A DNA stretch of 20,007 nucleotides from a virus. Within the stretch, counting starts at the first letter, position 1. Each line of letters begins with the position of its first letter. The stretch is from positions 1-20,007 of IMG/VR virus record IMGVR_UViG_3300034096_000126. One strand, written 5' to 3'. Shown here in pieces: positions 715 through 20,006 of the stretch. The notes under the pieces were generated by a model. The model was not told the DNA's origin. It ran no database searches and saw only the letters and a list, made by a program, of their open reading frames with translations. Position numbers and translations under genes: made by a program.

Positions 715-2952
715 TCAGCCTCCTGCCGCGCCAGCGATTTCAAGCGGCGCGGCTTGAAGCGCCCTCAGTTCACCGAGCATTTTCTGAAGCGTCTCGTTGC
801 TCTTGCGGTACTCGGCAATGGCCGGGTCTTCGCGGCCAGACGCCAGCGACATGAACATCTTCATGCCCTCGGATGACCGAATGTCGGCAACCTCAAGCGC
901 GTCGTTGGACTTGCCCTCCAGTGCCGACTTCGCCTCGCCTTGGAACCCACGAGCGTTGGCGATCTGATCCTCCATCCTCGCAACCTCGTCGTTGCGTTTC
1001 TTCTGTGCCGCGTCCAACGCCTTCATCTGGTCGACTTGACCCTTGAACTTGTCCTTGAGCTTGTCGGCCTCGTCAGCATAAGTCGCGGCATTGATCCGGC
1101 CGTCTTCCAGCTTCTGGTTGAGCGACGTCAGACCGCCCTCGTACTCAGCCGCAGCAGCGGCGCCTGCGGCACCAAACGCCGCCGCCGCTTCCGCAGCGGC
1201 GAAGAACGCGTTGGTCTGCTTGCTCATGGCCGCATCGTTTGCCTGCTCCATCTCGGCGTCGTCTTCGGCCAGCTTCTTGGCAGCGTCAGCCCTCGCCTCA
1301 AGAGTGCCGATCTGATCCTCAAAAGCCTTGCGAGCCTTGTCGGCAGCTTGGCCGTAGGACGTCTCGTTGAGGATGCCTGCCTCAAGCTCGCCTTGCAGGC
1401 CACGCAGTGACTCTTGGTATTGAACGGCAGCAGAGAAGCCTGCCTCGCCGTAGGCTTGTGCCTTCTCGATTGCCGACGAGATAGCGTCGTTCTGGCGGCG
1501 GATAGCAGCAGTGAAGTCGTCGGCTTCCTCTACAGACCCTGCCGCCGCGCCGCCATCCTCGCCGCCACCGCCAATGACCGCCCCGGCGGCAGCACCGCCG
1601 ACGTTCGAAGCGAAGACGCTTCCGAACATGGGCATCTTCGACAGGTAGTTGTACGCCGTGTCGAGCAGCGAGTTGAAGTACGCGATCTTTTTGGACACCC
1701 AGTCGAAGGCGCTGCCAACGCCGCTCTTGATAGCGTCCGCGAGGTTGTTCAGCCCGACGATGAACGGCGAGAGAAGAACGCTCGCCGCAAGCCCTGCGAC
1801 ACGAAGGACCACGCCGCCCAAAGACCCGAGAACGCCGACCGTCCGCATCGCTCCACTGACGAGCGTTCCGAGCAGCGTCCCGACAGGACGAAGCACCTGA
1901 GCAATCGGCGTCAGGAGCATGTTGGCACCAGCCGTCAGGTCAGCGAGTCCGTTGCGAAGTCCAGCAAAGCCCTCCGACAACCCCTCCAGCAAGCCAATGA
2001 ACGCGCTTCCGATCGTGCGTGTCACACCGGCTTCGGCCGCTTCCAGACGCTTCGACGCCTGCTCGGACTTCTCCATCGCTCTGGCAAGGTCGTCAAACTG
2101 CTTGACGTCGAGCGCCGAAATGGCGACCCCCATCGCGATCAAGTCCTCCCGAGCCGTGCCTGACTCAAGAGCCTTCTGGATGCTGAGGCTCTGAAACGTC
2201 TGCCCTGTCTTTGCAGCCTCAAGGTTCAAGGCTGCAACGCCTTTCGCTGCCTCATAGGCGGCATCACGCGAAGCAAAGAACTGGCGGGTGACATTGATCA
2301 CTGCGAGACCAAGGCCAACCATGGGGTTCGTCAGAGCCAGCGCTGCCGTCGACAGCACCCCCGCAGAGCCGCCAGCAACGCCAAGACCAATCCCAAGCAG
2401 CTTGAGTCCCGTGACGAGGTTTCGGGTCGTGGCGATGACCTTGATGCCCTTCGTGGCGAAGTCTGCGAACGCCGCCGGACTCTTGACGGCAGACCACAAC
2501 TGCCACTGTGCGTAGGCAGTAAGCAGACCACCCGCCCACTTCGTAGCGGCACCGGCCGCTTCCATGAGTTTGTCGGCAAGTGCATCGATGCCACCCGTCT
2601 TGCCGGACGCGGCATCGACGCTGCTGGAGAGGCGTTCAACCGAGTCCGCGGTCTTGCTGGCAGTGGCCTCAGCTGCCTTCATTTCTTGCTCGGCCTTGGC
2701 GACCGCGCGCCCATACACCTCCTGGGTAATGAGTCCTTTGGACATGAACTTGTCGAGCTTTTCGACCTTCTCGGCATACTTCTCTGCTGGGGTTCTGACT
2801 GACGCCGTGATCTTTGCGGCCTGAGCCAGTTCCTTCGACGTCGCAGCCGACGATGTCTCAAGCCGCTGGAGGCTCTTTTCCGCACGCGCAATTCCGGCGT
2901 CCATGCCAGAGGCGTTGGCCGTGATTCGGAATGCAAGGCTCTGCTCGGCCAT
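715..2952 (-). CDS. Tail tape measure protein
   Basis: 745 residues, the longest gene here. It sits directly after the tail assembly chaperone, the invariant position of siphophage tape measure genes. Residues 1-115 are a charged, coiled-coil-like helical region. Residues about 183-226 and 341-404 are long hydrophobic Gly/Ala/Leu/Val stretches, typical of the membrane-active part of tape measure proteins. Residues 476-660 hold two related copies of an Ala-rich helical unit of about 95 residues. The C-terminal 60 residues form another charged helix. ATG at 2950-2952 is preceded by GGAAGGG about 10 bases upstream and lies just after the chaperone stop. Using the usual rule of roughly 0.15 nm per residue, tail length would be near 110 nm (family rule, not measured). 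Confidence 0.9.
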   Translation of the reverse strand: MAEQSLAFRITANASGMDAGIARAEKSLQRLETSSAATSKELAQAAKITASVRTPAEKYAEKVEKLDKFMSKGLITQEVYGRAVAKAEQEMKAAEATASKTADSVERLSSSVDAASGKTGGIDALADKLMEAAGAATKWAGGLLTAYAQWQLWSAVKSPAAFADFATKGIKVIATTRNLVTGLKLLGIGLGVAGGSAGVLSTAALALTNPMVGLGLAVINVTRQFFASRDAAYEAAKGVAALNLEAAKTGQTFQSLSIQKALESGTAREDLIAMGVAISALDVKQFDDLARAMEKSEQASKRLEAAEAGVTRTIGSAFIGLLEGLSEGFAGLRNGLADLTAGANMLLTPIAQVLRPVGTLLGTLVSGAMRTVGVLGSLGGVVLRVAGLAASVLLSPFIVGLNNLADAIKSGVGSAFDWVSKKIAYFNSLLDTAYNYLSKMPMFGSVFASNVGGAAAGAVIGGGGEDGGAAAGSVEEADDFTAAIRRQNDAISSAIEKAQAYGEAGFSAAVQYQESLRGLQGELEAGILNETSYGQAADKARKAFEDQIGTLEARADAAKKLAEDDAEMEQANDAAMSKQTNAFFAAAEAAAAFGAAGAAAAAEYEGGLTSLNQKLEDGRINAATYADEADKLKDKFKGQVDQMKALDAAQKKRNDEVARMEDQIANARGFQGEAKSALEGKSNDALEVADIRSSEGMKMFMSLASGREDPAIAEYRKSNETLQKMLGELRALQAAPLEIAGAAGG

Positions 2953-3616: not shown

Positions 3617-3970
3617 TCAGCCTCCCAGCTTGAAGTTGACCGAATACTCCTGCAGCGCGTTCACGGTCCCGCGCCATACAGGGTCATTGAACATCGCCCA
3701 CGACCACGACTCCGTGATACCGGGGCCGTTGATTGATAGCGATGCCGTCAAGCCGACGTTCGTGCGGCTCATCGCCGTGGAGGTTCGCATGACGACGCTC
3801 ACGCTTCCGGGGTCAACGTCCCCCGGCACGAACTTCTTGAGTCGGCTCGTGCTGTTGAGCGGCGTGTACGCGGAGGCTTCGGCCGTGCCGAAGGCGTAGT
3901 CGATGGAGACGACTTCGCCAAGCGCGACGCCATTCCAACTGATTGTCGTGCCTTGGGCGTCTTGGGCCAT
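3617..3970 (-). CDS. Tail tube-like protein, second copy
   Basis: 117 residues from ATG 3968-3970, with a strong GGGGAGGG ribosome binding site about 4 bases upstream. The sequence is almost all beta-strand and small polar residues (TTISWNGVALGEVVSIDYAF at the start, SVNFKLGG at the end), matching the single-domain beta-sandwich of lambda-like tail tube proteins and their relatives. It lies between a similar 120-residue protein and the tail assembly chaperone, where the major tail protein is expected. It could be the tube subunit itself, or a minor tube or tail-terminator relative; sequence alone does not say which of the two tandem proteins builds the tube. The start is 15 bases after the upstream stop. 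Confidence 0.62.
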   Translation of the reverse strand: MAQDAQGTTISWNGVALGEVVSIDYAFGTAEASAYTPLNSTSRLKKFVPGDVDPGSVSVVMRTSTAMSRTNVGLTASLSINGPGITESWSWAMFNDPVWRGTVNALQEYSVNFKLGG

Positions 3971-3985
3971 GAGACCCTCCCCAAG

Positions 3986-4348
3986 TCACTGCACGACGCT
4001 GAACGTCGCCTGACCTTTGACGAGTTCGTTGGTCGCCCACGTGATGTTGAACGACTCGCACGTGGCCGTCGCCCCGGCAAGCTGCTGCGAAGTCACGCCA
4101 GCGACGTAGCTGACGAGCGAGATGACGCCAGACGAACCCTCGGCCGGTGCGACCGTGCCGAGGATGCTCAGGGTCACCTTCTTTGGGTCTTTGAGTGGAG
4201 CCTGCTGGGTGCGCTTGTATGCCCCCTTCGCTTGCCCGAGATGGGCCGCGTCGAGCATCGACACAGAGCCACCCAAGTCGATGTTGGTGGCCTCGTAGGT
4301 GGCACCGGCGAACGTGAGGACTGTTCCCTGAGAATCATCGACGGGCAT
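3986..4348 (-). CDS. Tail tube-like (probable major tail) protein, first copy
   Basis: 120 residues from ATG 4346-4348, with AGGAG 8 bases upstream. The pattern fits phage tail tube subunits: an opening strand (GTVLTFAGATYEATNIDLGG), a central loop with PLKDPKKVTLSILGT, and a C-terminal strand pair (ITWATNELVKGQATFSVV). It is the better candidate for the main tube protein because its 60-base leader carries the same 17-base element and ribosome binding site layout as the major capsid gene, suggesting matched high expression. The following gene encodes a second protein of similar size and apparent fold. Neither has a signal peptide. Confidence 0.66.
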   Translation of the reverse strand: MPVDDSQGTVLTFAGATYEATNIDLGGSVSMLDAAHLGQAKGAYKRTQQAPLKDPKKVTLSILGTVAPAEGSSGVISLVSYVAGVTSQQLAGATATCESFNITWATNELVKGQATFSVVQ

Positions 4349-4410
4349 GGGCGGCGCTCCTGTGTAGGGGTGCTTTCAGTCTGGCCGATCCCACCCCACC
4401 CTTGCAGTTC
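4349..4410 (-). promoter_or_regulatory. Leader of first tail-tube gene with shared 17-base element
   Basis: The 60-base gap between the gp10-like gene stop and the tail-tube ATG begins, read 5' to 3' on the minus strand, with GAACTGCAAGGGTGGGG (4394-4410). It continues to a GAAAG, a CACCCC block, and ACAGGAG 8 bases before the ATG. The same elements in the same order precede the major capsid gene at 9125-9207. I cannot tell whether this is a promoter, an RNA processing or stability element, or a translation enhancer; no clear -35/-10 pair was recognised. Confidence 0.5.
4394..4410 (-). repeat. 17-base direct repeat, copy 1
   Basis: GAACTGCAAGGGTGGGG on the minus strand, starting within the TGA of the gp10-like gene. 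It is identical to the copy at 9191-9207 ahead of the capsid gene. A near copy (first 12 bases identical) lies inside the large terminase gene at 12232-12243. Confidence 0.85.
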
Positions 4411-4921
4411 AAGCCACGGCAGCGGCCAGTGTTTTCTCGCCTACGCGAGCCAGCCTGCTCATCGCCGCCGCTGTCATTGCGTCGGTGGCGACCCCACGGG
4501 CCGTCTCCAGCGGCCGAAAAGCGGGCATGGCCCCGAGGTTCGTCGCACGGGTGACGAAGTTGACCGGGTAGACGCCGACCCCAACCCACCGCCCACGCGT
4601 GTTCCACGAAGACGACACGCCCTTGCTTGTGCGATACCGAATCACCGTGCCGAACTCGACGAGGTGCGCGTGCTTGGATCCGGGGCCAAAAAATCCGACG
4701 TCTGCCGCGACTCGCCACGTACCTCGCTCGACCCGAGTCCCAATGGAGTCGGCCAAGTTGCCCGTCACCCGGCCGAGTTTTCCCACCTCGGCCCGCAGAG
4801 CGGCTTCGCCGACGCGAGCCGCCGCGATCACGCACGGCTCGACGTTGGCAACGCTCGCGGCCTCAGCCGCTGCCTTGACGTTCAACCCGATTCCTCTCGC
4901 CAGCTTTTCGATGCTGATCAT
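4409..4921 (-). CDS. HK97 gp10-like tail component
   Basis: 170 residues from ATG 4919-4921, overlapping the previous stop as ATGA. The family hallmark is visible: HAHLVEFGT near the middle (about residues 84-92), followed by a variable loop and then MPAFRPLE (about 134-141). These are the conserved blocks of the HK97 gp10 / phage minor tail family found between head-closure and tail-terminator genes and the tail tube. The N-terminal third is an Ala-rich helix. The protein is thought to act at the head-tail interface or in tail completion; its exact role differs between phages. The gene stop merges with the 17-base repeat that begins the tail-tube leader. Confidence 0.85.
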   Translation of the reverse strand: MISIEKLARGIGLNVKAAAEAASVANVEPCVIAAARVGEAALRAEVGKLGRVTGNLADSIGTRVERGTWRVAADVGFFGPGSKHAHLVEFGTVIRYRTSKGVSSSWNTRGRWVGVGVYPVNFVTRATNLGAMPAFRPLETARGVATDAMTAAAMSRLARVGEKTLAAAVA

Positions 4922-5349
4922 GCAGCCTCGTCCTCCACGCGAATCTCGTAGGACTGCGTCACCGTGTAGTCAGGGAGCATCTGGGCGTCCTGCGGAATCT
5001 CGACGCCGTCAGACTCGCTCAGGAACGTGCATCGCTGGACGGTACACCCCCCGAGCGTCCCGCGAAACTTGTTCAATGCAGAGCGGACCTTCTCTGCGGT
5101 GTCCAAGGCACCAACATAGCTTCGGTCGTAGACCTTGACCTCAAGCGTCACGACCGGGCGCTCTACGGTCCCGCCGAGCGATGCTGGCGACTGAGAGTTT
5201 GCCCGGCGGAACACGATCAGCGGGTACGGGGTCTTCTGGGGAGCAATGATCGGAAAAACTCGATTGCCGATCACTGGCTGCGTGGTCGCGTGCGAAGTCA
5301 GCCAGTTGAAGATCAACGCCGACAGCCTACGTCCCATTCCGTTTGCCAT
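4918..5349 (-). CDS. Tail terminator-like protein (DUF3168 family)
   Basis: 143 residues from ATG 5347-5349, chosen over an in-frame GTG 18 bases upstream because GGAGG lies 5 bases before this ATG. Family features are RVFPIIAPQKTPYPLIVFRR (about residues 31-50), the later strand VTLEVKVYDRSYVGALDTAE and a helix with KVRSALNKFRGTLGG. They fit the DUF3168 fold shared with lambda gpU-like tail terminators, which cap the tail tube and join it to the head. The position between the head closure gene and the gp10-like gene agrees. The stop overlaps the next start (ATGA). Confidence 0.8.
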   Translation of the reverse strand: MANGMGRRLSALIFNWLTSHATTQPVIGNRVFPIIAPQKTPYPLIVFRRANSQSPASLGGTVERPVVTLEVKVYDRSYVGALDTAEKVRSALNKFRGTLGGCTVQRCTFLSESDGVEIPQDAQMLPDYTVTQSYEIRVEDEAA

Positions 5350-5350
5350 G

Positions 5351-5692
5351 TCAGCCTCCTGCCTCACTCGGGATGTGCCGCTGAACGCACGTGATGATCG
5401 AATAGAGCTGCCCCTCGTAATCGTCGATCGCAGCGATCTCCAGCTTTCGGTCGCGGTACTGAACCCACATGTCCGAAGTCAGCGATGGCAGGAATCGGAT
5501 CACGACCTTGTAGAGCGTGACGCCGACTTGCTGCCCGTACTGCTGCTGCTCGCGGGACGACAGCGGACGCACGGCACCCCAGACTTTTGCGACGAGCGAA
5601 GGGGCGAGCGTCACCTCGCCCGTGTCGTTGCGTGTCTGGACGGCACGGTAGATCGTCAGCCGATCCGTCAGTTCACCGGCGTTGACTGGCAT
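5351..5692 (-). CDS. Head closure / head-tail adaptor protein (SPP1 gp16 / HK97 joining type)
   Basis: 113 residues from ATG 5690-5692, overlapping the preceding stop as TGATG. A longer in-frame upstream extension is open but lies inside the connector gene and has no ribosome binding site. Typical family pattern: MPVNAGELTDRLTIYRAVQT at the N-terminus, then WGAVRPLSSREQQQYGQ, VTLYKVVIRFLP and a C-terminal DRKLEIAAIDDYEGQ, corresponding to the small beta-barrel of phage head-tail joining proteins. It is expected to bind under the portal/connector and close the filled capsid. The gene is tightly coupled at both ends. Confidence 0.83.
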   Translation of the reverse strand: MPVNAGELTDRLTIYRAVQTRNDTGEVTLAPSLVAKVWGAVRPLSSREQQQYGQQVGVTLYKVVIRFLPSLTSDMWVQYRDRKLEIAAIDDYEGQLYSIITCVQRHIPSEAGG

Positions 5693-6336
5693 CAGTAGCC
5701 GCTCCAGCGGACAGTGTTCAGCATCTGCTTCACGCCCATCGGGACGATGTTCAACGCTCCAGCCGCCGTCATTTCTCGATTGCGGTAGAGGTGTGCCACG
5801 AGCATGAGGATGGCAGGCTTGACCGCAGCGGGAACCTTGGTGCCGTCTTCGCCATACCCTGCCCACCATGTCAGGGTGACGGCGTTCCGGTCCACGACGT
5901 AGGACGGCCACGACTGCCCGTAGAGCGGACGCACCCCGCCGGGCGTCTGGTTCCGATCGACGCGGTACTCGCTCGCAGGCAGCGTGACAACCGTGCCGAC
6001 GCCGTTGATGACATTCGTCGTGTAGGTCAGCGAGACGTCCGTGAACCCTGCCGCCGTCGCCATCGGCGGGAACGGCAACCGGAACTCCCACGGGAACGCG
6101 TCCGTGCGAAGCTGCCACTGAGTGTGGATGAACGTCCGCTCCGTGTACCGCTCGGCCCACTCCCTCGCTGCCGAGATGTAGGTGGCGAACAGCGTCAGGT
6201 CTTCGCTGGTGTCGTCCACGCGACACTGCGCCTTGGCTTCGGCAAGCGACACTGGCTCGACGATCGGCTGCGTCAGCCGAATCAGCGAGCGATACTCGAC
6301 CAGACTGCGATCAAGCAGGTTCCGCTGCGTGGTCAT
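5692..6336 (-). CDS. Head-tail connector protein (phiE125 gp8 / gp6-like)
   Basis: 214 residues from ATG 6334-6336. The segment PVSLAEAKAQCRVDDTSED (about residues 28-46), followed by a helix containing YISAAREWAERYTERTF, is the classic signature of the phiE125 gp8 / HK97 gp6-like connector family. A beta-rich middle and a C-terminal helical part (PAAVKPAILMLVAHLYRNRE) follow. These proteins form a ring under the portal and link it to the closure protein. The frame starts 26 bases inside the end of the glycosyltransferase-like gene. Its length is within the usual range for the family. Confidence 0.85.
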   Translation of the reverse strand: MTTQRNLLDRSLVEYRSLIRLTQPIVEPVSLAEAKAQCRVDDTSEDLTLFATYISAAREWAERYTERTFIHTQWQLRTDAFPWEFRLPFPPMATAAGFTDVSLTYTTNVINGVGTVVTLPASEYRVDRNQTPGGVRPLYGQSWPSYVVDRNAVTLTWWAGYGEDGTKVPAAVKPAILMLVAHLYRNREMTAAGALNIVPMGVKQMLNTVRWSGY

Positions 6337-7069
6337 CCTTGCTCCTCACTCTCCAGGTCGATGCAGGCTTGCCGGACGCCGAGTAGTCTCTCGTGGACTG
6401 ATGAACGGGAGTGGAAAGGTCGGCCCCCGGCCATGTCACGACGTATTCGCCGTGGCCGATGACGACACGAGGCGTGACGAAGACGCGATTGCCGCTTGCC
6501 CGCCACTGCTTCCAGAACCACATGTCGTCGTCGACGCGGCCATCGTCCCACTCGCCATCCTCGTTGGGAGCGCAGTGAAACCACGGCTTTCGCATCCGCT
6601 TGAGCGCTGCCGTCGAGATGATCGTGCAGCCGAAGTGTGCCGCGTCAACCTCCTGGGCCGGAGCGCCAAACCACTCGGCCGTCAGCCCGGCGCTCTGCGT
6701 CTTTCCAGCGCCTTGGAACGTCCCGAGCGGCGTGATCATTACCTTGCCGTCATCCCGCTTCGTCTGGAACGGGGCCAAGGCATCGCAGCCGAGCGCCATC
6801 GTGATGGCAAAAAGCTGCTCGACGTCCTCCCGAGACATGAACGAGTCGTAGTCCATCGCGAGGATGTATTCGCACTCGTCGATCGCGGCCTTGAAACCAC
6901 GCGAGAGGCACTGGCTCCAGAAGGCTCCCTGAATGATTGTCGGCTCGATGCCGAGCGGCAGGAGCGCCTTCCACCACGCCATGTGGTTGCTCGTGAACGA
7001 CAGGCGCGGCATCGACATGACCGCCTTCACGCGGATGTCAGCCTTCGTGGAACCAATCTCGACCAGCAT
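6311..7069 (-). CDS. Glycosyltransferase-like (GT-A fold) protein
   Basis: 252 residues from ATG 7067-7069, with GGAG about 8 bases upstream. The open frame extends further 5' but those codons would cross the decoration gene and a strong hairpin, so I reject the extension. The layout resembles compact GT-A/GT2-like glycosyltransferases: an N-terminal strand and loop (KAVMSMPRLSFTSNHM), a helix, then ECEYILAMDYDSFMSREDVE carrying a DxD-like DYD near residue 73, and a C-terminal block with DDDMWFWKQW and VVIGHGEY. A nucleotide-sugar-dependent activity is therefore predicted. The target is unknown: capsid or decoration protein, or modified DNA bases. It is the only apparently non-structural gene inside the head-to-connector block. 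Family recognition is by motif only. Confidence 0.62.
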   Translation of the reverse strand: MLVEIGSTKADIRVKAVMSMPRLSFTSNHMAWWKALLPLGIEPTIIQGAFWSQCLSRGFKAAIDECEYILAMDYDSFMSREDVEQLFAITMALGCDALAPFQTKRDDGKVMITPLGTFQGAGKTQSAGLTAEWFGAPAQEVDAAHFGCTIISTAALKRMRKPWFHCAPNEDGEWDDGRVDDDMWFWKQWRASGNRVFVTPRVVIGHGEYVVTWPGADLSTPVHQSTRDYSASGKPASTWRVRSKDDHAAEPA

Positions 7070-7098
7070 CTCGGCGTCTCCATGGTGGCTGCAAACGA

Positions 7099-7129
7099 AC
7101 GAGGGCGGGGCATCATGCCCCGCCCTCGT
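7099..7129 (-). terminator. Strong GC hairpin after decoration gene, possible intrinsic terminator
   Basis: A perfect inverted repeat with 14-base arms (7099-7112 and 7116-7129) around a 3-base loop, in the 94-base gap between the decoration gene stop and the glycosyltransferase start. On the minus-strand transcript the hairpin is followed by UUCGUUUGC, a weak U-rich run, so it may terminate only partly or protect the 3' end of the upstream message. Confidence 0.6.
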
Positions 7130-7163
7130 GGGCGTCAGCAGCATGGTCGGCCTGTCAAGCCGA

Positions 7164-7652
7164 TCAGTTGGTGTACGTCGTGTTGGGCGAGAGCGCCACG
7201 CCAAGCTGGCCGCTGACGGCCCGGAGGACACCCTTGGAAGCGGCATCCCACGGAGCCTGCTCGCCCTTGGAGAGCCGAGCCACGGTGTAGATCGACCCGG
7301 TGGCTTGGCCGGTTGCCAGAACGCGGAGATAGCGGCCGGACTGCCCCTTGAGGTCGATGTCGAACCGGATGTCGTTGTCCGAGGTGGTGTTGGCAGGGTT
7401 CGGGATGGTGAACCCGCCGCTGCCACCGCCGACGAACGCCGTGATGTCGCTGTAGGTCGTCCCGTCCCCCTGCTGGAGCTTGAGGACCGTGGCGACAGCC
7501 GAGTTTGTCCCGGCAGCGGCCACCTTCTCGAACACGACGTCGATCGACACGTGGCCGAAGCCGAGCGTGTCGATCACGGGGGAGTGGGTCTGGCTGGACG
7601 TCAGGTTCTCGTCCAACTGGGCAAACGTCTTGGAAGCCGAGACGAAGTTCAC
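7164..7652 (-). CDS. Probable capsid decoration / accessory head protein
   Basis: 162 residues from GTG 7650-7652, with AGGAG 7 bases upstream. I do not recognise a named family. The sequence is beta-rich and full of Gly, Thr, Asn and Ser, with no cysteine, signal peptide or membrane segment; example segments are FGHVSIDVVFEKVAAAGTNS and DIDLKGQSGRYLRVLATG. It directly follows the major capsid gene, where many HK97-type phages encode a decoration, cement or head-fibre protein. Its leader resembles the capsid leader near the ribosome binding site, and GC hairpins stand on both sides of the gene, giving it its own expression unit. All of this fits an abundant virion protein. The role is inferred from context. 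Confidence 0.6.
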   Translation of the reverse strand: MNFVSASKTFAQLDENLTSSQTHSPVIDTLGFGHVSIDVVFEKVAAAGTNSAVATVLKLQQGDGTTYSDITAFVGGGSGGFTIPNPANTTSDNDIRFDIDLKGQSGRYLRVLATGQATGSIYTVARLSKGEQAPWDAASKGVLRAVSGQLGVALSPNTTYTN

Positions 7653-7704
7653 GGGGATGCTCCTGCGGGTGGCGGTCGTGGACGGGGATGCGGTGTGCGA
7701 TTCC

Positions 7705-7737
7705 GCCGGGGGAGGGGAGGGCGACCCCTCCCCCGGC
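7705..7737 (-). terminator. 13-bp GC hairpin downstream of major capsid gene
   Basis: Perfect inverted repeat: 13-base arms at 7705-7717 and 7725-7737, loop of 7 bases, starting 10 bases after the capsid stop on the minus strand. There is no U-tract after it (GGAAUCGC), so it is more likely a transcript-stabilising or pausing hairpin than a simple intrinsic terminator. Confidence 0.55.
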
Positions 7738-7747
7738 GTCAGGTCAC

Positions 7748-9124
7748 TCAGGCAGCGAACTTGAGGGCCACGACAGGCCCGGCCTTCGTGGACGAGCCGA
7801 CGTCGTGGCAGACCATCGAGGCGCGAGTCGTGGCGAACGTGAAGGTCTGGTCGTATTCCATGTAGCGATCGGTGCTGGTCTTGAGGGCCACGGCCCGACG
7901 ATCGCCGAACGAAGCGGCCTGCGAAAGATCGCCGAACACGCAGGCGATCTTGTTGGCCGTGCCGGTCAGGTCGCCCAGCATCGACACGACTTGGACCACC
8001 GGGTAGCCAAGGAACGTCTCGGGCATCGCGGTGGCCGCGTCACCCTTGGCGTTGCCAGAGAGCGTCACCGACAGCCGAGCCATCGCCGCAGCCCACCCAG
8101 CCGGACTGATGTACCACTTCGCGTTCCGGCGAGCATAGACCGGGAGCCTCGCCAGCATGGAGGTGAAGTCGGGCATGGTCAGGGTGTCGAACGTGTTGCG
8201 GCTGGTGCCAGCCGTCACGATGCCCTTGTTGCTCGCCACGTTGGTGATCGCGCTCACGATCCCCACCGTGCCGTGGTAAGCGGGCGAGCCATCACCGATG
8301 AACCCGGCGTCGTCGAACGCGACCGCGAAGGCGTAGGCCGTTTCGAACGCCAGTTCTTCAGCCAGCGAGATGGGGCTGTCCTCGATGAGCGAGTTGGGGG
8401 TGCGGTTGCCCACGCCCCACAGCTTCGCCACCATCTCGACTTGGTTGTAGACGATCTGCGACTCGGTCGGCGTGTCGTTCTCCCCGATCGGGATGGCCGA
8501 CAGACCGCCGACCCGACGCGGCATGAACATCTGGTCGGACGTCATCTTCCGACGCTTCGCCTCGCGGGGGAACACGCCATAGTCCTCCAGCAGCCGGATC
8601 ACCTCGTTGGCGAACTCCGGGGCGACGAGAACACCGCCAAGCTCGTTGACCGAGCCGGACTGCGCCCGCACCTCATGCTCGATGCACCACCGACGAGCCT
8701 CGGCGTCACCGAACACGTAGCCGCGAAGGTGCATCCCGGCCCGCAAGGCCCGCTCCTCGGCGTTCGGCCCCTGGAAGTGCTTGAGCCGACCGTGTGCCTT
8801 CGGCACGGCGGGGATCGACCGCCGCTCGGGCTGCTTGCTGGCGTTCGTCTCGCCATCGCCGGTGCTGGCGGTGTCGTTCGCAGGCTTGCTGGCCGGAGCG
8901 CCACGGTCGATGATCGACCGCAGTTCGGCTTGACGCGCGTCCATGCGCTTGTGGAACTCGACCCGCTCCTTGATCTTGGCGGCTCGCTCCGACAGAGTCT
9001 CCATCTGCTTGACGGAGTCCTCGCTCATCTGCTCGCCTTCGGGGACGACGTCCTCAAGGGCGCCCATCTCCGCGAGAACGCTGGTCAGTTCATCGAGCAG
9101 TGCCTTGATCTGGGAAGACGCCAC
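7748..9124 (-). CDS. Major capsid protein, HK97 fold, with N-terminal scaffold (delta) domain
   Basis: 458 residues from GTG 9122-9124, chosen because AGGAG lies 8 bases upstream; the frame is open 24 codons further but that part is the leader. Residues 1-75 are a charged coiled coil (IKALLDELTSVLAEMGALED and on), followed by a flexible Pro/Thr/Ser linker to about 110. This is the usual self-scaffolding delta domain removed by the prohead protease. The capsid core begins around residue 155 with NELGGVLVAPEFANEVIRLL, then MPRRVGGLSAIPIGEND, DAGFIGDGSPAYHGTVGI and WYISPAGWAAAMARL, all standard for the HK97 capsid family. The gene lies after the protease and a small zinc ribbon. A strong leader before it and a hairpin after it suggest separate high-level expression. 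Confidence 0.93.
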   Translation of the reverse strand: MASSQIKALLDELTSVLAEMGALEDVVPEGEQMSEDSVKQMETLSERAAKIKERVEFHKRMDARQAELRSIIDRGAPASKPANDTASTGDGETNASKQPERRSIPAVPKAHGRLKHFQGPNAEERALRAGMHLRGYVFGDAEARRWCIEHEVRAQSGSVNELGGVLVAPEFANEVIRLLEDYGVFPREAKRRKMTSDQMFMPRRVGGLSAIPIGENDTPTESQIVYNQVEMVAKLWGVGNRTPNSLIEDSPISLAEELAFETAYAFAVAFDDAGFIGDGSPAYHGTVGIVSAITNVASNKGIVTAGTSRNTFDTLTMPDFTSMLARLPVYARRNAKWYISPAGWAAAMARLSVTLSGNAKGDAATAMPETFLGYPVVQVVSMLGDLTGTANKIACVFGDLSQAASFGDRRAVALKTSTDRYMEYDQTFTFATTRASMVCHDVGSSTKAGPVVALKFAA

Positions 9125-9207
9125 GGGGGGGACTCCTGTGCGGGTGCGGTGGTACGCGAATCGCGTCCCCCGCACTTTCTCCCCAGCCGCCCCCACCCTT
9201 GCAGTTC
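9125..9207 (-). promoter_or_regulatory. Major capsid gene leader: 17-base element, hairpin, ribosome binding site
   Basis: On the minus strand the leader starts with GAACTGCAAGGGTGGGG (9191-9207), then GAGAAAG. A 30-base imperfect stem-loop follows (9145-9174; outer stem TGCGG/CCGCA, inner stem ACGCGA/TCGCGT), then CCCGCACAGGAG with AGGAG at 9133-9137, 8 bases before the GTG. The tail-tube leader at 4349-4410 has the same elements without the stem-loop. Promoter function is possible but no standard promoter boxes were recognised. Confidence 0.5.
9191..9207 (-). repeat. 17-base direct repeat, copy 2
   Basis: Identical to 4394-4410 (GAACTGCAAGGGTGGGG on the minus strand). Located in the 99-base non-coding gap between the zinc-ribbon gene and the capsid gene. 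Confidence 0.85.
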
Positions 9208-9223
9208 CGGGGCGTGTGTTTTA

Positions 9224-9391
9224 TTACGCGCGCCTCCGCACCTCGGCTGCTGCGACGACCTGTTTGTCGGTCACCTTGCAGCGGTCGCAGCGCAGATAGC
9301 GGACCTGACGCTCGCCGCAGCGGACGCTGCTCACCGTGACGAACCTTCCTGCCCGGCAATCCGGGCATCGGTCACCCGATCGTGCGGCCAT
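9224..9391 (-). CDS. Small zinc-ribbon protein
   Basis: 55 residues from ATG 9389-9391, beginning 18 bases before the end of the protease coding frame. The sequence carries two CxxC pairs, CPDC (residues 9-12) and CDRC (35-38), separated by a beta-hairpin-like stretch with RCGERQVRYLR, which is a classic zinc ribbon. The C-terminus is basic (EVRRRA). Zinc ribbons of this size in phages, such as the Com-like proteins, bind nucleic acid and can act as translational or transcriptional regulators. Here it lies immediately upstream of the capsid leader with its 17-base element, so a regulatory role on capsid expression is possible but unproven. Its stop is TAA followed directly by another TAA. Confidence 0.68.
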   Translation of the reverse strand: MAARSGDRCPDCRAGRFVTVSSVRCGERQVRYLRCDRCKVTDKQVVAAAEVRRRA

Positions 9392-10409
9392 GCTGCTTGA
9401 GAAACTCCCGGTATTCAGCCGAACGGCGAACAGGCACCGCAGCCCGCTTCGCCACTCGCGCCCGAAGGAACTGGTCGAGCGAACGCTTTGCCACCTCGAC
9501 GTCAGACTCGGGGTAGGCGGGGAAGGTCGTTGGCGAGACGTCGTAGAGCGCCTCGACTTCCATGACGGTGCGGACCGAGCGGCCATCCTCGACCGTCCAT
9601 CGGTCGCCGTCCGGTGCCGTGACGAACCCGAACGACGAGCCACGAACGATTCCGTCCTCGATATTCATCCGAAGGTCTTGGCCGTAGGACGTTCGCGGGA
9701 ACGGGAACTCGTACCGCAGGCCACGCTCGTCCGTGACCAGCTTGAGCGTGTCAGGGTAGCGGGCCAGCGGGTAGTTGGCGTCGTGGTTCCACAGCGCGCG
9801 TGTCTCGACGCTCTGAGGCGACTTGCTACGGGAAAGCACCCGGTCAAAGGCACGCGGGTCGATCCGCTCTACGAAGTCGCCGCCTGCGTCCCGAAGGTCG
9901 AGGGACAGAATCCCAAAAACGCTGGCGTAGCCGACGCACCATTCCCGCTGGGTCACGGTGGGTTGGCCGTCAACAATGACTTCTTCGGCTCGCGTCTCGA
10001 CGCGGATCGCCGGGAAAGCCACGCTTGCGTTGAGCAGCGAGCGACGTTCGATCTTCATGGTGATGCTCCTCTCGTCAGCGGCGTTCATCTGTTCCACTAG
10101 CTTGCGGCTCCACGACCATCCGGCGTCGGACCCCCACAATGCCCAAGAGATTCTCCCGTTAGAGGGAAACCCCGGCGACCCCGGCGACCAGCCTTCTCCC
10201 TGCTTGTCCGACTGATGCCGGTCGAAATACGCCTTCATCCTGCGGGCCGTCTCTGGGCTGATCTTCGTGCCGTTCGACAAGTCTCGGGCGCGAGCGATGC
10301 CGACTGCGGTTCCTCCACGGCCGAACTCGCGTCGCCACGCCAATCCCTTCTCGGCCTCGGATCGCACTCCCTTCGGAGGCGTGAAGTCGATGTGGTCGTA
10401 CTTCGCCAT
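9372..10409 (-). CDS. HK97-type prohead protease with extra N-terminal domain
   Basis: 345 residues from ATG 10407-10409, overlapping the portal stop as TGATG, with GGGAG 6 bases upstream. Residues 1-110 form a separate domain (KGLAWRREFGRGGTAVGIAR, then ISPETARRMKAYFDRH and GRISWALWGSDAG) seen in various phage head genes; its role is unclear. Residues 118-345 are the protease: YASVFGILSLDL, the catalytic His in ALWNHDANYPL (H209), and the catalytic Ser in GIVRGSSFGF (S258 or S259), the S78/U35-type prohead protease pattern. It would cleave the capsid delta domain during maturation. Residue 118 is a Met with its own very strong ribosome binding site, so a 228-residue protease may also be made, close to the usual family length. 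Confidence 0.9.
   Translation of the reverse strand: MAKYDHIDFTPPKGVRSEAEKGLAWRREFGRGGTAVGIARARDLSNGTKISPETARRMKAYFDRHQSDKQGEGWSPGSPGFPSNGRISWALWGSDAGWSWSRKLVEQMNAADERSITMKIERRSLLNASVAFPAIRVETRAEEVIVDGQPTVTQREWCVGYASVFGILSLDLRDAGGDFVERIDPRAFDRVLSRSKSPQSVETRALWNHDANYPLARYPDTLKLVTDERGLRYEFPFPRTSYGQDLRMNIEDGIVRGSSFGFVTAPDGDRWTVEDGRSVRTVMEVEALYDVSPTTFPAYPESDVEVAKRSLDQFLRARVAKRAAVPVRRSAEYREFLKQHGRTIG
10056..10073 (-). promoter_or_regulatory. Internal ribosome binding site and start within protease gene
   Basis: GAGAGGAG (10066-10073) lies 7 bases before an in-frame ATG (10056-10058). Initiation here gives MKIERRSLLNASV and a 228-residue protein, essentially the bare protease domain. This is one of the best Shine-Dalgarno sequences in the window, in the middle of an open frame. 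Confidence 0.62.
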
Positions 10410-11935
10410 CACAAGCTCCCTGATGTCGCGGATGCTGGCTGTACCGGCGCGGAAACGCTCGCATCGGGCTGGCTTGTGTCGCTCCCAAGAACGATCTTCG
10501 CCGCCTCCTGCCTGCTGAGCGTCGGAAACGCAACGGCAAGCAACTCAATCGCCGATGAACGGGACAGCGCCCCGGCAGAGACTTGCGACAGCACTTGGAG
10601 GACACCACCGATGTCCACGGTCGTCGCGGCGTTCTTCGCGGCGGCGGCAGCGGCGTTCGTTGCGGCCTGCTCCAGCGTCTGCATGTTCATCTGGACGAAC
10701 CGCTGGTCGCCGCCGTCGACGCGGTTCTTTCCTTCGGCCGTCCTGACCTCGTTGACAGACAGCCAGCCGTCCTGCAATCCGCTGTGGTAGTAGGCAGACC
10801 GACCGGCCGCGTCCCCACGCATGAGTGCGGTCGTGTCGAACTCCGGGTAGAACCCTGCCTCACGGTCGCGGTAAGTCAACAGGTCGCGGCAGATCGTCGT
10901 CTCAAAGCGGCGAATCCACGCCATCATCGTGTAGGTCAGGAAGTCCAGACCCTGCTGCTCGATGTTGTTGTTCGTGGAGCGGTCGAGCATCCCAACCAGA
11001 TGCGGAGGGACGCCCATGATCCGGCAGATTTCCTCGGCTTGAAACTTCCGCGTCTCAAGGAACTGGCTGTCGGCGTTGTTGCCCTCAAACGGGATCGGCT
11101 TGAGTCCTCCCGTCAGGATCGCCGGACGATGCGCTCTCGACGCCCCGCGATGAACCTTCTCCCACGTGTAGCGAATCTCATCCCTTGCTTCCTTGCTCAA
11201 CTCGTCAGTGTCCGTGGACAGGATGATCCCCGGCCTCGCACCGTTGCCGAAGTACGCGGCACCGTGAATCTCGCACGCGCGGGCAAGGCCGATGGCGTCC
11301 TGAGACACCTCGTAGGGAACGATGCCGTTGACGCCATCGTTCGTCAGCCAGCGAAAATGCGTCACCTGTTCCTGGCGGTACGGCTGGTCCTGCCCGTTGG
11401 CGTCTTTGTAGAAGTACCCCAGCCGACCGTCCTCAAGGCGGGAGCAAGTCATGCGCGTCGGATGAAGCGGCAGGAGCGCCACGACACGGGGCTGCTCCAA
11501 GCCGATCTCACTGTCTATCGAGTAGATTTTCTCGTCCATCGCCTGACCGCTCGTCCCGAGGTGGATCACCTTCTGAGTGACCCACTCCCAAGTCGTCTGC
11601 CACGAGTTTGGCCCGTGGTTGAATAGGCGATGAAGCCAATGATCGACGGCAACCCGCTCGCCGTCCGGCGTTCGCTGCATGATCCGAAGCGGGAGATTGG
11701 CGAGCGTTTCGCCAATGACCCGAAGGCAGGCGAGATAGACCGTCGATCGCATCACCTCGTCAGCGTCGACCTTGATGCCAGACGGATTGCTGTGCGTGGC
11801 CGACAGGAATCGCCCCGCGTCGTTGTCCCAAAGGAAGTTGCGGGACGACACGCCGTTGTCGAACCTCACGCTGCGGTCGCCGGTCGGCTCGGAGAAGTCG
11901 TCAGGGAGCCACAGCAGTCGAGAGGCAGCGATCAT
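10409..11935 (-). CDS. Portal protein (HK97 family)
   Basis: 508 residues from ATG 11933-11935, overlapping the terminase stop as ATGA; an in-frame extension upstream lies inside terminase and is rejected. HK97-family portal features: STVYLACLRVIGETLANLPL (about 65-84), the stem/crown region, and the hallmark FQAEEICRIMGVPPHLVG (about 298-315) followed by TNNNIEQQGLDFLTYTM (321-337). The last 60 residues are Ala/Thr/Ser-rich and likely flexible. The dodecameric portal forms the unique capsid vertex, docks the terminase and later the connector. Gene order terminase, portal, protease, capsid is the standard HK97-like arrangement. Confidence 0.93.
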   Translation of the reverse strand: MIAASRLLWLPDDFSEPTGDRSVRFDNGVSSRNFLWDNDAGRFLSATHSNPSGIKVDADEVMRSTVYLACLRVIGETLANLPLRIMQRTPDGERVAVDHWLHRLFNHGPNSWQTTWEWVTQKVIHLGTSGQAMDEKIYSIDSEIGLEQPRVVALLPLHPTRMTCSRLEDGRLGYFYKDANGQDQPYRQEQVTHFRWLTNDGVNGIVPYEVSQDAIGLARACEIHGAAYFGNGARPGIILSTDTDELSKEARDEIRYTWEKVHRGASRAHRPAILTGGLKPIPFEGNNADSQFLETRKFQAEEICRIMGVPPHLVGMLDRSTNNNIEQQGLDFLTYTMMAWIRRFETTICRDLLTYRDREAGFYPEFDTTALMRGDAAGRSAYYHSGLQDGWLSVNEVRTAEGKNRVDGGDQRFVQMNMQTLEQAATNAAAAAAKNAATTVDIGGVLQVLSQVSAGALSRSSAIELLAVAFPTLSRQEAAKIVLGSDTSQPDASVSAPVQPASATSGSL

Positions 11936-13563
11936 AGGACGATGATTCCCGGCTTTGGCTTCGGTGCCTTGTTGACGATCTGCTCTTGCTCCCACCACCC
12001 GAGAGCGAAGATGAGGGCCACGATCCCGTCGATGCGGCCGTTCGACTTCTTCTTGACCGGCCGCATGTCCTCGTAGGCGTTCGTCTCGACCGTCACCGCC
12101 GCTGCCTGTGCCGACAGGGCAGGATTGCCGCCGTGCCGCACCTTCCGTTCCAGCACGAGCGCTTCCAGCCGCTTCGTCGGCGCCGACATGGCGCGAAACG
12201 ACTGCGGGTATTCTTTGACGTTAAGCCCCTCCCCTTGCAGTTCCACGGCAAGCTGCGTGGCACCAGTGATGTCCACGACGATCTGTTCGATCTGGTGATT
12301 CTTGGCGTACTCCAGCACCCACTCACGAATCCGGGCATGGTCGATGACGTCGCCGTCTGTCGCGTAAATCCAGCCCTCCTCGACCCAGCGGCCGTAGGGG
12401 AGATGGTCCCGACGCTCGGCCTCCGCGACACGATCCTTGGGCATGAAAAGCATCGTCTCGACGTCGAACGTGCCGTCTTCGTTGGGGAACAGGGCAGATG
12501 CCGCAGAGAAGTCGATCCGCTTGGACAAGTCCATGCCCAAGATGCACTTCCGGCCAGACAAGTCGCCCGGAGTGGCATTGCAGGCGTTCCACCGTTCGGG
12601 ATCAATCCAGCGGTCAGCGGACTCTGTCCAGACACCGAGCGAGCGTCTCAGCCAGCCATTGAGCTTGGTCGGCTTGTTCTTGGCCTCCATCGCGTCTGAC
12701 GCGAACGATTCCATCGTCATGGTGATGCCCATGCCGGGATTGCATCGCCGCCACACCTCCGGGTCGAAGTAGTCTTCTCCGATCGCTGGCCCGTAGATTT
12801 TTCCGTAGAAGCGGGGGTCATAGGCAGGGTTTGCGATGACTTGCTCGGCGTACTCGTGCTGCTCCCAGCACAGGCTTTGCCGGTCGCTTCCCGCCGTCGT
12901 GATCGTGATGAGGAGCGGGTGCTTTCTGGAGCGGCCTGCGTAGCGGAGCGAGTCCCAGAGAAGACGGTCGGTCTGCGTGTGAAGCTCGTCGAAGAACACG
13001 AACGAGTACGACGGACCCTCGGCCGCGCCAGCGTCACGGGAGATGACGGACAGGCTGGACCCGCTTGCACGATGGAAGATGGTCTTTGTCGACCGGACGA
13101 CCTCAAGCTCATAGGCCAGCGCTGGGGATCGCTGGATCATGTCGGCCATCTCGTTGAAGATGATCGACGCCTGCCCGCGAGTCTTGGCCGCGATACAGCC
13201 AAGCGCTCCCGGCTCGTCATCTCCGATCAACTGGTAGGTGCCGAGCCATGCCAACGCACTTGACTTGGCGTTCTTTTTTGGCACCTCGATATAGACGACC
13301 CTGTACCTTCGCAGTCGCTCTGGCGTGTCTTCACGCCAACCATAGATCGGGCGGATCAGCCACTCACGATGCCAGTCGATCAACTTGACCGGCTCGCCTG
13401 CCTTCGCTGTCGGGGAGTCCTTCGTGTGGCAGCAGAGCGACTCGATGAAGTCCTCGACGGCCAGCGCCTTGGCCTCGTCGTAGACGAATCCGGGGATGTA
13501 TTCAGCTTGCCGAATGGCGGGCACGCCACTGAGCCAGGGGGGAGGTGGGGCTGCTGCTTCCAT
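11932..13563 (-). CDS. terL: Terminase large subunit (ATPase and nuclease)
   Basis: 543 residues from ATG 13561-13563, with AGGTGA upstream, overlapping the small-subunit gene by 62 bases. The ATPase has a phage-type Walker A, VPKKNAKSS (94-102), and a Walker B with catalytic Glu, SFVFFDELHT (187-196), followed by a coupling motif around ITITTAGS. The nuclease domain has the expected acidic residues: GMDLSKRIDFSA (D345), IVVDITGA (D431) and GRIDGIVA (D512). It packages DNA into proheads and cuts it. The protein resembles HK97/phage terminases paired with P27-type small subunits. An in-frame GTG about 36 bases downstream is an alternative start. Confidence 0.94.
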   Translation of the reverse strand: MEAAAPPPPWLSGVPAIRQAEYIPGFVYDEAKALAVEDFIESLCCHTKDSPTAKAGEPVKLIDWHREWLIRPIYGWREDTPERLRRYRVVYIEVPKKNAKSSALAWLGTYQLIGDDEPGALGCIAAKTRGQASIIFNEMADMIQRSPALAYELEVVRSTKTIFHRASGSSLSVISRDAGAAEGPSYSFVFFDELHTQTDRLLWDSLRYAGRSRKHPLLITITTAGSDRQSLCWEQHEYAEQVIANPAYDPRFYGKIYGPAIGEDYFDPEVWRRCNPGMGITMTMESFASDAMEAKNKPTKLNGWLRRSLGVWTESADRWIDPERWNACNATPGDLSGRKCILGMDLSKRIDFSAASALFPNEDGTFDVETMLFMPKDRVAEAERRDHLPYGRWVEEGWIYATDGDVIDHARIREWVLEYAKNHQIEQIVVDITGATQLAVELQGEGLNVKEYPQSFRAMSAPTKRLEALVLERKVRHGGNPALSAQAAAVTVETNAYEDMRPVKKKSNGRIDGIVALIFALGWWEQEQIVNKAPKPKPGIIVL

Positions 13564-16662: not shown

Positions 16663-17576
16663 GCCAGCGGCTCCCCACGCTTGCGGTTCTTGGCCCACTG
16701 CACCTCGTCCTTGGCGGACTTGCAGTGAATCATCTTCTCCCGGTAATAGAACACGAGAGTGATCCGCTCGTAGCCGGCCCGCATCTGCTTGAAAACGGTG
16801 TTGCTGTGCCACTCGTGGACGTCGGCAAGGCACAGGCAACCGTGGGCGAAGTTGACCGCAACCCGAAACGCCGGAAACACGAGGAACGCGCCGTCGTACA
16901 GGTCATTGCGGAGGCAAGACATGACGCCGAAACCCGCGTGGAGGTCGCCTGCGTCCTTGTGCGTCGCGGTCTGGAAGTTGCGATTGACCGTGACCGTCGT
17001 GAAGGTGCTTTGCGGAATGACCCAATCCGGCGCCGTGCGGCTGACGAACGCGCGCTGAGCCTCCCAACGCTCAGGCATGAACTCTCGGAACCCCTCGTCG
17101 GCTCGCTCGATGTAGGGCAGGAACTGCCGCCACGCCGCGGCCTCCGAGATCACGAACGAAGTCTGCCGGCAGAACGGAAATCTGGCCGAGCGGTCGAAAA
17201 AACCCACCACGCCGCTGACAACGCCAGCAGCGTGATTGGTGTTGCTGAGCGTCCCGTCGCGTTTCACGGCCCGGTATCTCGTCGCCGACGCCGCTCCCAC
17301 TTCCCTGCCGTCTCTGTTCTTTGCGCCATCAAGCTGCCCGGCAGCCATGCCGCGGTTGAACGTCATGCGCGCAGCCCTTCGGCAGGAAGGCGCGACGTCT
17401 CGACACAGAGGCTCGCTGAACCACCCCGGCCGGTACTTGACCAGCGGTGTGCCGTCCGGCTTGAAGACGTCGCAAGGCTCGTCCCCGCCGAGAAGGTGGT
17501 CGAAGTGCGTGTCGTTCAGCTTGGTCCCGGCGAGGTGGTCAGCGTCGAATCGTTCAGTGCAACGATGAACTTTCAC
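16659..17576 (-). CDS. Phage TET/JBP-type 2OG/Fe(II) DNA base dioxygenase
   Basis: 305 residues from GTG 17574-17576, with GGAGG 9 bases upstream; overlaps the ParB-like gene by 23 bases. The C-terminal half is a TET/JBP-type double-stranded beta-helix: TFTTVTVNRNFQTATHKDAG carries the iron ligands H206 and D208, then the DLYDGAFLVFPAF strand, DVHEWHSNT with the distal ligand (most likely H257), and ERITLVFYYRE with the 2OG-binding R271. The N-terminal half, with SNTNHAAGVVSGVVGFFDR and PFCRQTSF, fits the phage branch. Family members hydroxylate the methyl group of thymine (JBP) or 5-methylcytosine (TET) in DNA. No methyltransferase or nucleotide hydroxymethylase is in the window, so the substrate base is open; thymine is suggested by the 5-hmU-kinase-like neighbour. 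Confidence 0.82.
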   Translation of the reverse strand: MKVHRCTERFDADHLAGTKLNDTHFDHLLGGDEPCDVFKPDGTPLVKYRPGWFSEPLCRDVAPSCRRAARMTFNRGMAAGQLDGAKNRDGREVGAASATRYRAVKRDGTLSNTNHAAGVVSGVVGFFDRSARFPFCRQTSFVISEAAAWRQFLPYIERADEGFREFMPERWEAQRAFVSRTAPDWVIPQSTFTTVTVNRNFQTATHKDAGDLHAGFGVMSCLRNDLYDGAFLVFPAFRVAVNFAHGCLCLADVHEWHSNTVFKQMRAGYERITLVFYYREKMIHCKSAKDEVQWAKNRKRGEPLA

Positions 17577-18445: not shown

Positions 18446-18764
18446 GTGCCGTCTTCCTCGCGTGGCAGATGATGCACCGGCAGGCACCGTTGCTGATGTC
18501 GTACCTCGACGCCCCGTTCTCGCAGCGGTCAGTCCCGCGAACGATGGGCGACACGTGATCGGCGTGAGCCTCTCCCTTGTCGGAACAGACACGACCGCAG
18601 TCCACGCAAGTCCAGTTGTCGCGGACCAGTACGGCACGGCGCCATGACGCGTGGCGGCTGTCGCAGTACCCACGTTGGTAGGCGTTGGGACGACGCTCGA
18701 CGATCGGCGGGGCAGCGGAAGCCGCCAGCCGGATCGGCTTGAACTGCTCCGGTCGCTTAGGCAT
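18438..18764 (-). CDS. HNH endonuclease
   Basis: 108 residues from ATG 18762-18764, overlapping the dehydratase stop by 8 bases; a TTG two codons upstream is an alternative. The fold is clear: [20 protein letters not shown] (40-59) with the first zinc Cys pair, then [12 protein letters not shown] (67-78) with the catalytic [17 protein letters not shown] (91-105) with the Asn, Cys ligands and final His. In P27/HK97-type phages, a small HNH protein works with the terminase to cut concatemers at packaging sites. Here it lies in the same transcription unit but is separated from the terminase genes by the modification cassette. A free-standing homing-type HNH is less likely because it is woven into overlapping genes. 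Confidence 0.85.
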
Positions 18765-19734
18765 GGGCAACGGCCTTCAGTTCTGCATCGACCATCATCG
18801 CCACCAGTTCCTCAAAGCCGACCTGCGGCACCCACCGCAACGCCGTCCGTGCCACCGTCGCGTCTCCCATGAGGATGTCCACCTCGGCAGGACGTTGCAG
18901 CGCCGGGTCGATCGACACGAACGACCGCCAGTCCAGCCCGACTCGGCCGAACGCCAACTCGACGAACTCACGAACCGTGTGCGTCTCTCCAGTGGCAATG
19001 ACGTAGTCGCCGGGGGAGTCCTGCTGGAGCATGAGCCACATGGCTCGGACGTAGTCGCCTGCGAATCCCCAATCACGACGCGCGTCGAGGTTTCCAAGGT
19101 GGAGCCTGTCCTGCATCCCTGCCTTGATCCGGGCGACCGCACGAGCGATCTTCCGCGTCACGAACGCTTCCCCACGACGCGGACTTTCGTGGTTGAAAAG
19201 GATGCCGCACGACGCGTGAAGGCCGTAGGATTCCCGGTAGTTGACCGTGGCCCAGTGGGCGTAGACCTTCGCACAGCCATAAGGGCTGCGAGGGTGGAAT
19301 GGAGTGTCCTCGCTCTGCGGTGCGGTGCCGGGCAGGCCACCGAACATCTCCGAAGACGACGCTTGGTAGAACCTCACCGTCTTGTCCGTCTCGTCTTGCA
19401 GTGTGCGAATCGCCTCCAGCAACCGGACAACCCCGGAACCAGTGACGTCGGCGGTGTATTCGGGCTGTGCGAACGACGCGTGAACGTGAGACTGCGCGGC
19501 GAGGTTGTAGACCTCGTCCGGCCGCGCCCTGCTTATGATGCGGGACAGCGAGAGCGCGTCAGATAGGTCGCCTGAGTGCAACGTCACCCGGTCTGCGAAC
19601 GGCTCGATTCGGTCAGAGGCCGTGGACGACGTGCGCCGCACGATCCCATGCACCTCGTAGCCCTTCGCCAGCAGCAACTCCGCGAGGTAGCTGCCATCCT
19701 GCCCGGTGATTCCCGTGATGAGTGCGCGTTTCAC
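18757..19734 (-). CDS. gmd: GDP-mannose 4,6-dehydratase
   Basis: 325 residues from GTG 19732-19734, overlapping the upstream tail gene stop as GTGA; an in-frame extension to 19974 is rejected because it lies inside that gene. It is a short-chain dehydrogenase/reductase of the Gmd type: the NAD(P)-binding [19 protein letters not shown] (4-22), [10 protein letters not shown] (124-133) with the catalytic Ser/Glu, [10 protein letters not shown] (152-161) with Tyr152 and Lys156, [17 protein letters not shown] (180-196) and [19 protein letters not shown] (211-229), all diagnostic. It converts GDP-D-mannose to GDP-4-keto-6-deoxy-D-mannose, the precursor of GDP-fucose, rhamnose or perosamine. All catalytic residues are present, so it should be active. 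It could alter host surface sugars or supply sugar for a phage glycosyltransferase. Confidence 0.93.
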
Positions 19735-20006
19735 TTCCACACCCCGCCGACGTTGATCTTGGCCTCGCTCAAGCGGAACGCCGTCCCGTCGTGGACGTAC
19801 GCATCGGCAGGCCGCCACGTTCCCCCGACATTGATCGACAGTTTCCTTGGCATCCCCGCCGCCCGATCCGGCAGGGGCGACAGGCCGATCCCGCGACGGG
19901 AGGCAAGCAGGCGGATTTCGGCGGGCGTGATGGCGCGGTCGTAGATGCGGATGTCGTCGAGGTAGCCGTCCCATTGGAAGGGTGCATTACCACCAACTGC
20001 GTTAGC
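19731..20006 (-). CDS. Tail fibre/spike C-terminus with LamG-like end, partial
   Basis: The open frame enters from the right edge and ends with TGA at 19731-19733, giving 91 residues. It starts [20 protein letters not shown] and continues [15 protein letters not shown], the characteristic final strand and helix of a LamG/concanavalin-like carbohydrate-binding domain. A short C-terminal module has two related units (INVGGTWR and INVGGVWK) around a [13 protein letters not shown] segment, common in phage tail fibres and other virion adhesins. It is therefore probably a receptor-binding or tail-fibre protein. The start and most of the protein lie outside the window. It overlaps the gmd start, so the sugar enzyme is translated with the fibre gene. 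Confidence 0.72.

Follow-up and report, generated by a model that had tools for sequence, protein, structure and literature searches.

In the middle promoters of phage T4, the MotA box, (a/t)(a/t)(a/t)TGCTTtA, is positioned 12 ± 1 bp from the -10 element, an arrangement associated with sigma appropriation (PMC2988021). A different kind of repeated phage element is the mycobacteriophage SAS (GGGATAGGAGCCC), a 13-bp repeat that contains the ribosome-binding site (PMC3203893). The papers on planctomycete promoters that we found use the E. coli sigma-70 consensus as the reference for predicted sites (PMC11958385), and papers on transcription in planctomycete phages were not found. An earlier description of a CTGCAAGG promoter was likewise not found in the literature searched, the coverage of which was incomplete.

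Here we describe a shared sequence element in a 20-kb virus record (20,007 nt, analyzed as a whole and referred to below as the window) and in its relatives, which were collected from IMG/VR by capsid, tail-gene and terL searches. A word shared by the leaders of two structural genes is very probably the -35 part of a bipartite promoter that starts separate structural-gene transcripts in a phage family. This family is uncultured and probably planctomycete-infecting. The promoter would have the form CTGCAAGG-N17-nAnnnT followed by a pyrimidine/purine start. Two boxes, a fixed spacing, an initiator, a strand bias, conservation and a synonymous constraint in terL are all demonstrable at the sequence level.

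The shared word and its conservation

Exact copies of the 17-base word GAACTGCAAGGGTGGGG lie on the minus strand at 4394-4410 and 9191-9207, upstream of a tail-tube-like and a capsid gene, just as the preliminary description had placed them. The downstream layout noted there (GAAAG, a CCC block, CACAGGAG and a start 8 nt further on) is present at both genes, with GTG 9124 (capsid) and ATG 4348 (tail) standing 8 nt past CACAGGAG, but the distance to GAAAG differs between the two. The extra stem-loop ascribed to the capsid copy was confirmed as an inverted repeat at 9144-9175. The predicted promoter parts and associated genes of the window and the loci of one protein from related records are listed in Table 1.

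Table 1. Coordinates of the predicted promoter parts and associated genes in the window, and of the small HTH protein genes in related records.
Feature	Position	Strand	Evidence
Capsid promoter, -35-like box CTGCAAGG	9197..9204	-	Kept before capsid gene in relatives to 33% identity
Capsid promoter, -10-like hexamer GAAAGT	9174..9179	-	17 nt past box; nAnnnT at offset 17 in 25/28
Predicted capsid transcription start, G, ± 1 nt	9167	-	Purine column 25/28, pyrimidine before 22/28
Inverted repeat (stem-loop), -10 to Shine-Dalgarno	9144..9175	-	Folds in every capsid leader
Shine-Dalgarno AGGAG, capsid gene	9133..9137	-	Direct reading
Major capsid protein gene, GTG start	7748..9124	-	Pfam Phage_capsid 3e-29; PHROG major head protein 2.5e-34
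Tail promoter, -35-like box CTGCAAGG	4400..4407	-	Kept before tail gene, window clade and distant clade
Tail promoter, -10-like hexamer CAGACT	4378..4383	-	Spacer 16 in window, 17 in most relatives
Predicted tail transcription start, A	4371	-	Sequence alignment of sites
Shine-Dalgarno AGGAG, tail gene	4357..4361	-	Direct reading
Probable tail-tube gene, 120 aa	3986..4348	-	Gene order, weak fold matches
terL-internal -35-like box CTGCAAGG	12233..12240	-	Profile score 21.6, not in training
terL-internal -10-like hexamer AAGAAT	12210..12215	-	Spacer 17
Predicted terL-internal start, A, toward portal, protease, capsid	12203	-	Profile scan, window reading
Small HTH protein gene, L070	2178-2603	-	
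Small HTH protein gene, L076	7136-7516	-	
Small HTH protein gene, L073	4173-4556	-	
Small HTH protein gene, L074	7939-8322	+	
Small HTH protein gene, L072	6880-7257	-	
Small HTH protein gene, L062	about 1380-1734	+	

The capsid gene assignment is firm. The other gene probably encodes a tail-tube protein, judging from its place between the tail-terminator genes and the tape measure and from an all-beta structural model with weak fold matches to the lambda gpV, Hcp and SPP1 tube proteins; no match at E <= 0.001 was obtained in the fold search of PDB, and a PHROG match was not found. Beside it, at 3617-3970 (minus strand), lies a 117-aa protein that has a similar start (DAQGT versus DDSQGT) and may be tube-like as well. 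Elsewhere in the window, a frame at 18757-19974 (minus strand) that by eye resembles GDP-mannose 4,6-dehydratase adjoins the packaging genes.

Allowing up to three mismatches, a scan of the window yielded two matches beyond the exact pair, each with two mismatches. One is located inside terL (12227-12243), while the other (16673-16689) lacks a -10 and has a background-like profile score of 11.5. The pair had been considered not to be expected by chance, and this holds in part: dinucleotide shuffles gave a mean of 0.03 matches to the 17-mer, but some repeated 17-mer was present in 6% of second-order Markov sequences modeled on this GC-rich window. The element stands beyond chance because it is conserved in relatives, not because of the 17-mer pair itself. 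Outside the phage family, the exact 17-mer was seen in a different phage group, in L006 (9844-9860, minus strand) and L009 (622-638, plus strand), where it precedes a terminator-like stem and has no nAnnnT at 17 nt. These two occurrences are probably due to chance, as by our estimate about that many are expected in the collection.

The relatives range from near-identical to 33% capsid identity, and a search for further copies found the box kept before the capsid and tail genes down to that lower level. According to their comparison, the conserved core is CTGCAAGG rather than the whole 17-mer; the GGGTGGGG tail is mostly a variable spacer, in which one G (column 12) of the G-rich stretch is well kept. 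In the window clade (65-100% capsid identity), GAACTGCAAGGG is kept upstream of both the capsid and the tail gene as well as within terL, with a terL variant in L026 (GAACTGCAAGGA) and a single degenerate tail box in L020. The distant clade has CTGCAAG followed by G, C or T as its capsid box and TAACTGCAAGG as its tail box (CTGGAAGG in L056). Within the clade at about 50% identity, the box before the capsid gene, as read by eye, has diverged to sequences resembling TGGAYG, of which most retain the same spacing; a tail-gene site was looked for in this clade and none was recognized. Four records (L010, L018, L021 and L022) have the tail copy inside the upstream reading frame. The original restriction of the element to two genes is correct as to the capsid and tail copies but too narrow, since there is a third copy in terL and there are more at late genes of relatives.

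Layout of the predicted promoter

We aligned 44 distinct sites at CTGCAAGG and reduced them to 28 nonredundant ones. Of the 28, 25 have nAnnnT at offset 17 and the remaining three have it at offset 16, whereas 0.85 per offset is expected from composition and no other offset exceeds 3; under a stricter redundancy cut the figure is 17 of 20. All these sites therefore have a hexamer with conserved A2 and T6 at a spacing of 16-17 nt (28/28), as expected of a bipartite sigma-70-type promoter, although the counts are taken over sequences of shared ancestry and so overstate the independence of the sites. The hexamer reads TASNNT in the distant clade, and its first T is missing in the window clade. 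About 7 nt past the -10, where such a promoter should start, 25 of 28 sites have a purine (22 of them A), and in 22 of 28 the base before this position is a pyrimidine. By this layout the element is a predicted sigma-70-like promoter with a non-canonical -35. The layout also places the shared word, which precedes the start codon by 50-80 nt, upstream of the transcript and not in the leader RNA.

The -35 box CTGCAAGG matches no known sigma. The housekeeping sigma-70 combination of a -35 near TTGACA and a -10 near TATAAT was not found in the element, and a scan of 4300-12400 with the canonical sigma-70 consensus gave no site, with 0.7 expected from shuffles. Sigma-54 and ECF readings, considered by eye, were dropped because the spacing or the -10 did not fit across the copies.

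A profile trained only on the capsid and tail sites was used to scan 16 phage records, which may be incomplete. The late strand gave 89 matches and the opposite strand 17 (top score 14.4), compared with 27 in Markov sequence. A loose pattern run over 14 records, with the strands sorted by us, matched 64 times on the late strand and 20 times on the opposite one, compared with 22 matches for the reversed control. We propose that host RNA polymerase would start at the predicted promoters and that they would be active late, as the gene content suggests. In addition to the promoters before the capsid and tail-tube genes, the one inside terL would yield a transcript into portal, protease and capsid, and in relatives at least one small late gene would have a promoter as well.

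The copy inside the terL gene

Although the profile was not trained on terL, the terL site scores 19-26 in 13 of the 15 terL-holding records; the score falls to 11.0 in L038, and the site is absent in L036. Codon usage is informative here. All 16 terL representatives encode the Gln of LQG by CAA, a codon with a background share of 28% in terL. In distant clades, where a Val codon provides the TA of the -10, this codon is GTA in 7 of 8 cases, against an overall share of 5.8%. These codons are counted in sequences with common ancestry and are not independent draws. The single GTA exception is L036, in which the -35 is lost too. On these codon counts, the terL-internal site is under synonymous constraint at both boxes. 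The internal site is missing from terL genes that have ELAG (L030-L032) or lack LQG (L086 and L087). The former three are a natural control for the site, as their terL is 72-74% identical to that of the window, with ELAG replacing ELQG, and their portal is only 44% identical. The terL copy is a clear example of bases shared by a promoter and a protein motif, with a constraint that persists when more than half of the protein sequence is different.

Together with the fixed -10 spacing and the profile, the terL codons support the initial idea of a phage-specific expression signal and refine it to the -35 part of a promoter.

Candidate readers, rival explanations and known systems

Because capsid relatives were found in Planctomycetota and Phycisphaerales MAG contigs, Planctomycetota is likely the host phylum, binning errors being possible. 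A capsid survey of 392 Planctomycetota genomes returned, besides the already known MAG, more distant capsids only; the leaders of these capsids contained a single box, the one in the known MAG, and a terL search of the genome contigs found no relative.

As to what reads the promoter, six records from close and distant clades, five of them long and the sixth being L062, share a conserved small HTH protein (Table 1). In most records its gene is directly followed by another promoter copy. A script detected this extra site, just past the HTH gene and before a small gene, in four of the six records, and in a fifth, L076, it was readable by eye (CTCAAAGG-N17-TAGCGT). Neither the window nor several shorter or incomplete records yielded the protein, and a search of 199 Planctomycetota genomes recovered it solely from the MAG with the capsid relative (contig C125). 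In its structural model the protein is helical, the first half resembling an HTH; a search for PDB sequence matches and significant fold matches gave none, and Pfam HTH_17 matches 2 of 7 family members only. We regard the protein as a candidate for reading the promoter. Tentatively, then, this planctomycete phage lineage may encode its own initiation factor, perhaps the HTH protein, which would recognize the unusual -35 and redirect host RNA polymerase to the CTGCAAGG late promoters, including the one in terL.

Five of these records contain a conserved gene that by eye resembles a DNA polymerase sliding clamp: L070 (3511-4350, minus), L074 (4460-5563, plus), L073 (8081-9184, minus), L072 (10040-11146, minus) and L076 (10801-11943, minus). 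Late transcription in T4 is coupled to the T4 clamp, and given that coupling a link between this gene and the promoters would be worth testing.

The same promoter might instead have its -35 read by a host alternative sigma factor, which we consider possible but rather unlikely. This would agree with the ordinary sigma-70 type of the -10 and with the 13 phage records in which no sigma-factor domain was recognized (PF04545 matches were sub-threshold only). However, in the 199 Planctomycetota genomes, a thin sample, the strict motif was not enriched (8 matches versus 12 for the reversed control), and the MAG with the capsid relative has two strict matches, of which one falls on its phage contig. 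Given this lack of enrichment, the motif looks phage-specific.

An RNA-level leader element, that is, a translation enhancer or a processing or stability signal, is improbable. Two of the copies do lie in 5' leader regions near Shine-Dalgarno sites, and an inverted repeat, GTGCG...CGCAC, is conserved in the capsid leaders of relatives. Since its 5' arm begins at the -10, RNA from the predicted start would lack that arm, and the full repeat exists only in DNA or in read-through RNA; the mean folding z of capsid leaders is -4.5 from -9 and -1.7 from +1. Distant tail leaders have short hairpins from about +1 or +2, but those of the window clade are unstructured. Furthermore, the terL copy is within coding sequence and 300 nt away from where the next gene begins. 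The purine at +1 and the conserved distance to the -10 are features of a promoter. Membership in a described RNA family was rejected, as no Rfam family matched.

Some capsid leaders also contain a perfect dyad with the core CTA-NN-TAG (most of L044-L063, as well as L036, L038 and L041), which was not seen in the clade of the window. Its arms vary yet are always complementary (e.g. GTTGCCTAACTAGGCAAC and AAGTGTTCTACATAGAACACTT). Where the box is clear, the dyad is centered 25-27 nt upstream of the -35, at about -62, and overlaps the end of the upstream gene. An operator, an activator site and an RNA hairpin are candidate readings.

A DNA site with a non-transcription role, such as terminase packaging or recombination, is very improbable: it would suit a copy in terL and sites that are few and in one orientation, but it does not predict the -10 hexamer at 17 nt, the purine at +1 or the placement before abundant structural genes. 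The suggestion that one ancestral leader was duplicated to a second gene, prompted by the exact 17-mer match in the window, can scarcely be credited and was rejected, as copies from the same genome are 94% identical in the box but only 31% in the upstream and 33% in the downstream flank, about the chance level, and the third copy is in terL coding sequence under codon constraint.

If the promoter reading is correct, this is a promoter class readable from sequence, from which start sites and transcription units could be derived in uncultured phages and which could serve as bait for the reading factor. Among known systems, T4 middle promoters are similar in that they pair a host-type -10 with a phage-specific box in place of the host -35, and in that several promoters serve one gene class (PMC2988021). 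In contrast to them, the box here is CTGCAAGG, located at the ordinary -35 position 17 bp from the -10, and TGCTT at 12 ± 1 bp was not found. Because of these differences in spacing and sequence, we do not file the element with T4 middle promoters. The SAS/ESAS elements of Cluster K mycobacteriophages are also short, conserved, phage-specific repeats before many genes and are absent from the host genome. Unlike SAS, the element described here is upstream of the predicted transcript, is separate from the AGGAG Shine-Dalgarno sequence and has one copy inside a gene. With canonical sigma-70 promoters it shares two boxes, a 17-nt spacer, a -10 whose second base is A and sixth base T, and a purine start 7 nt downstream, and it differs in having CTGCAAGG rather than TTGACA as its -35.
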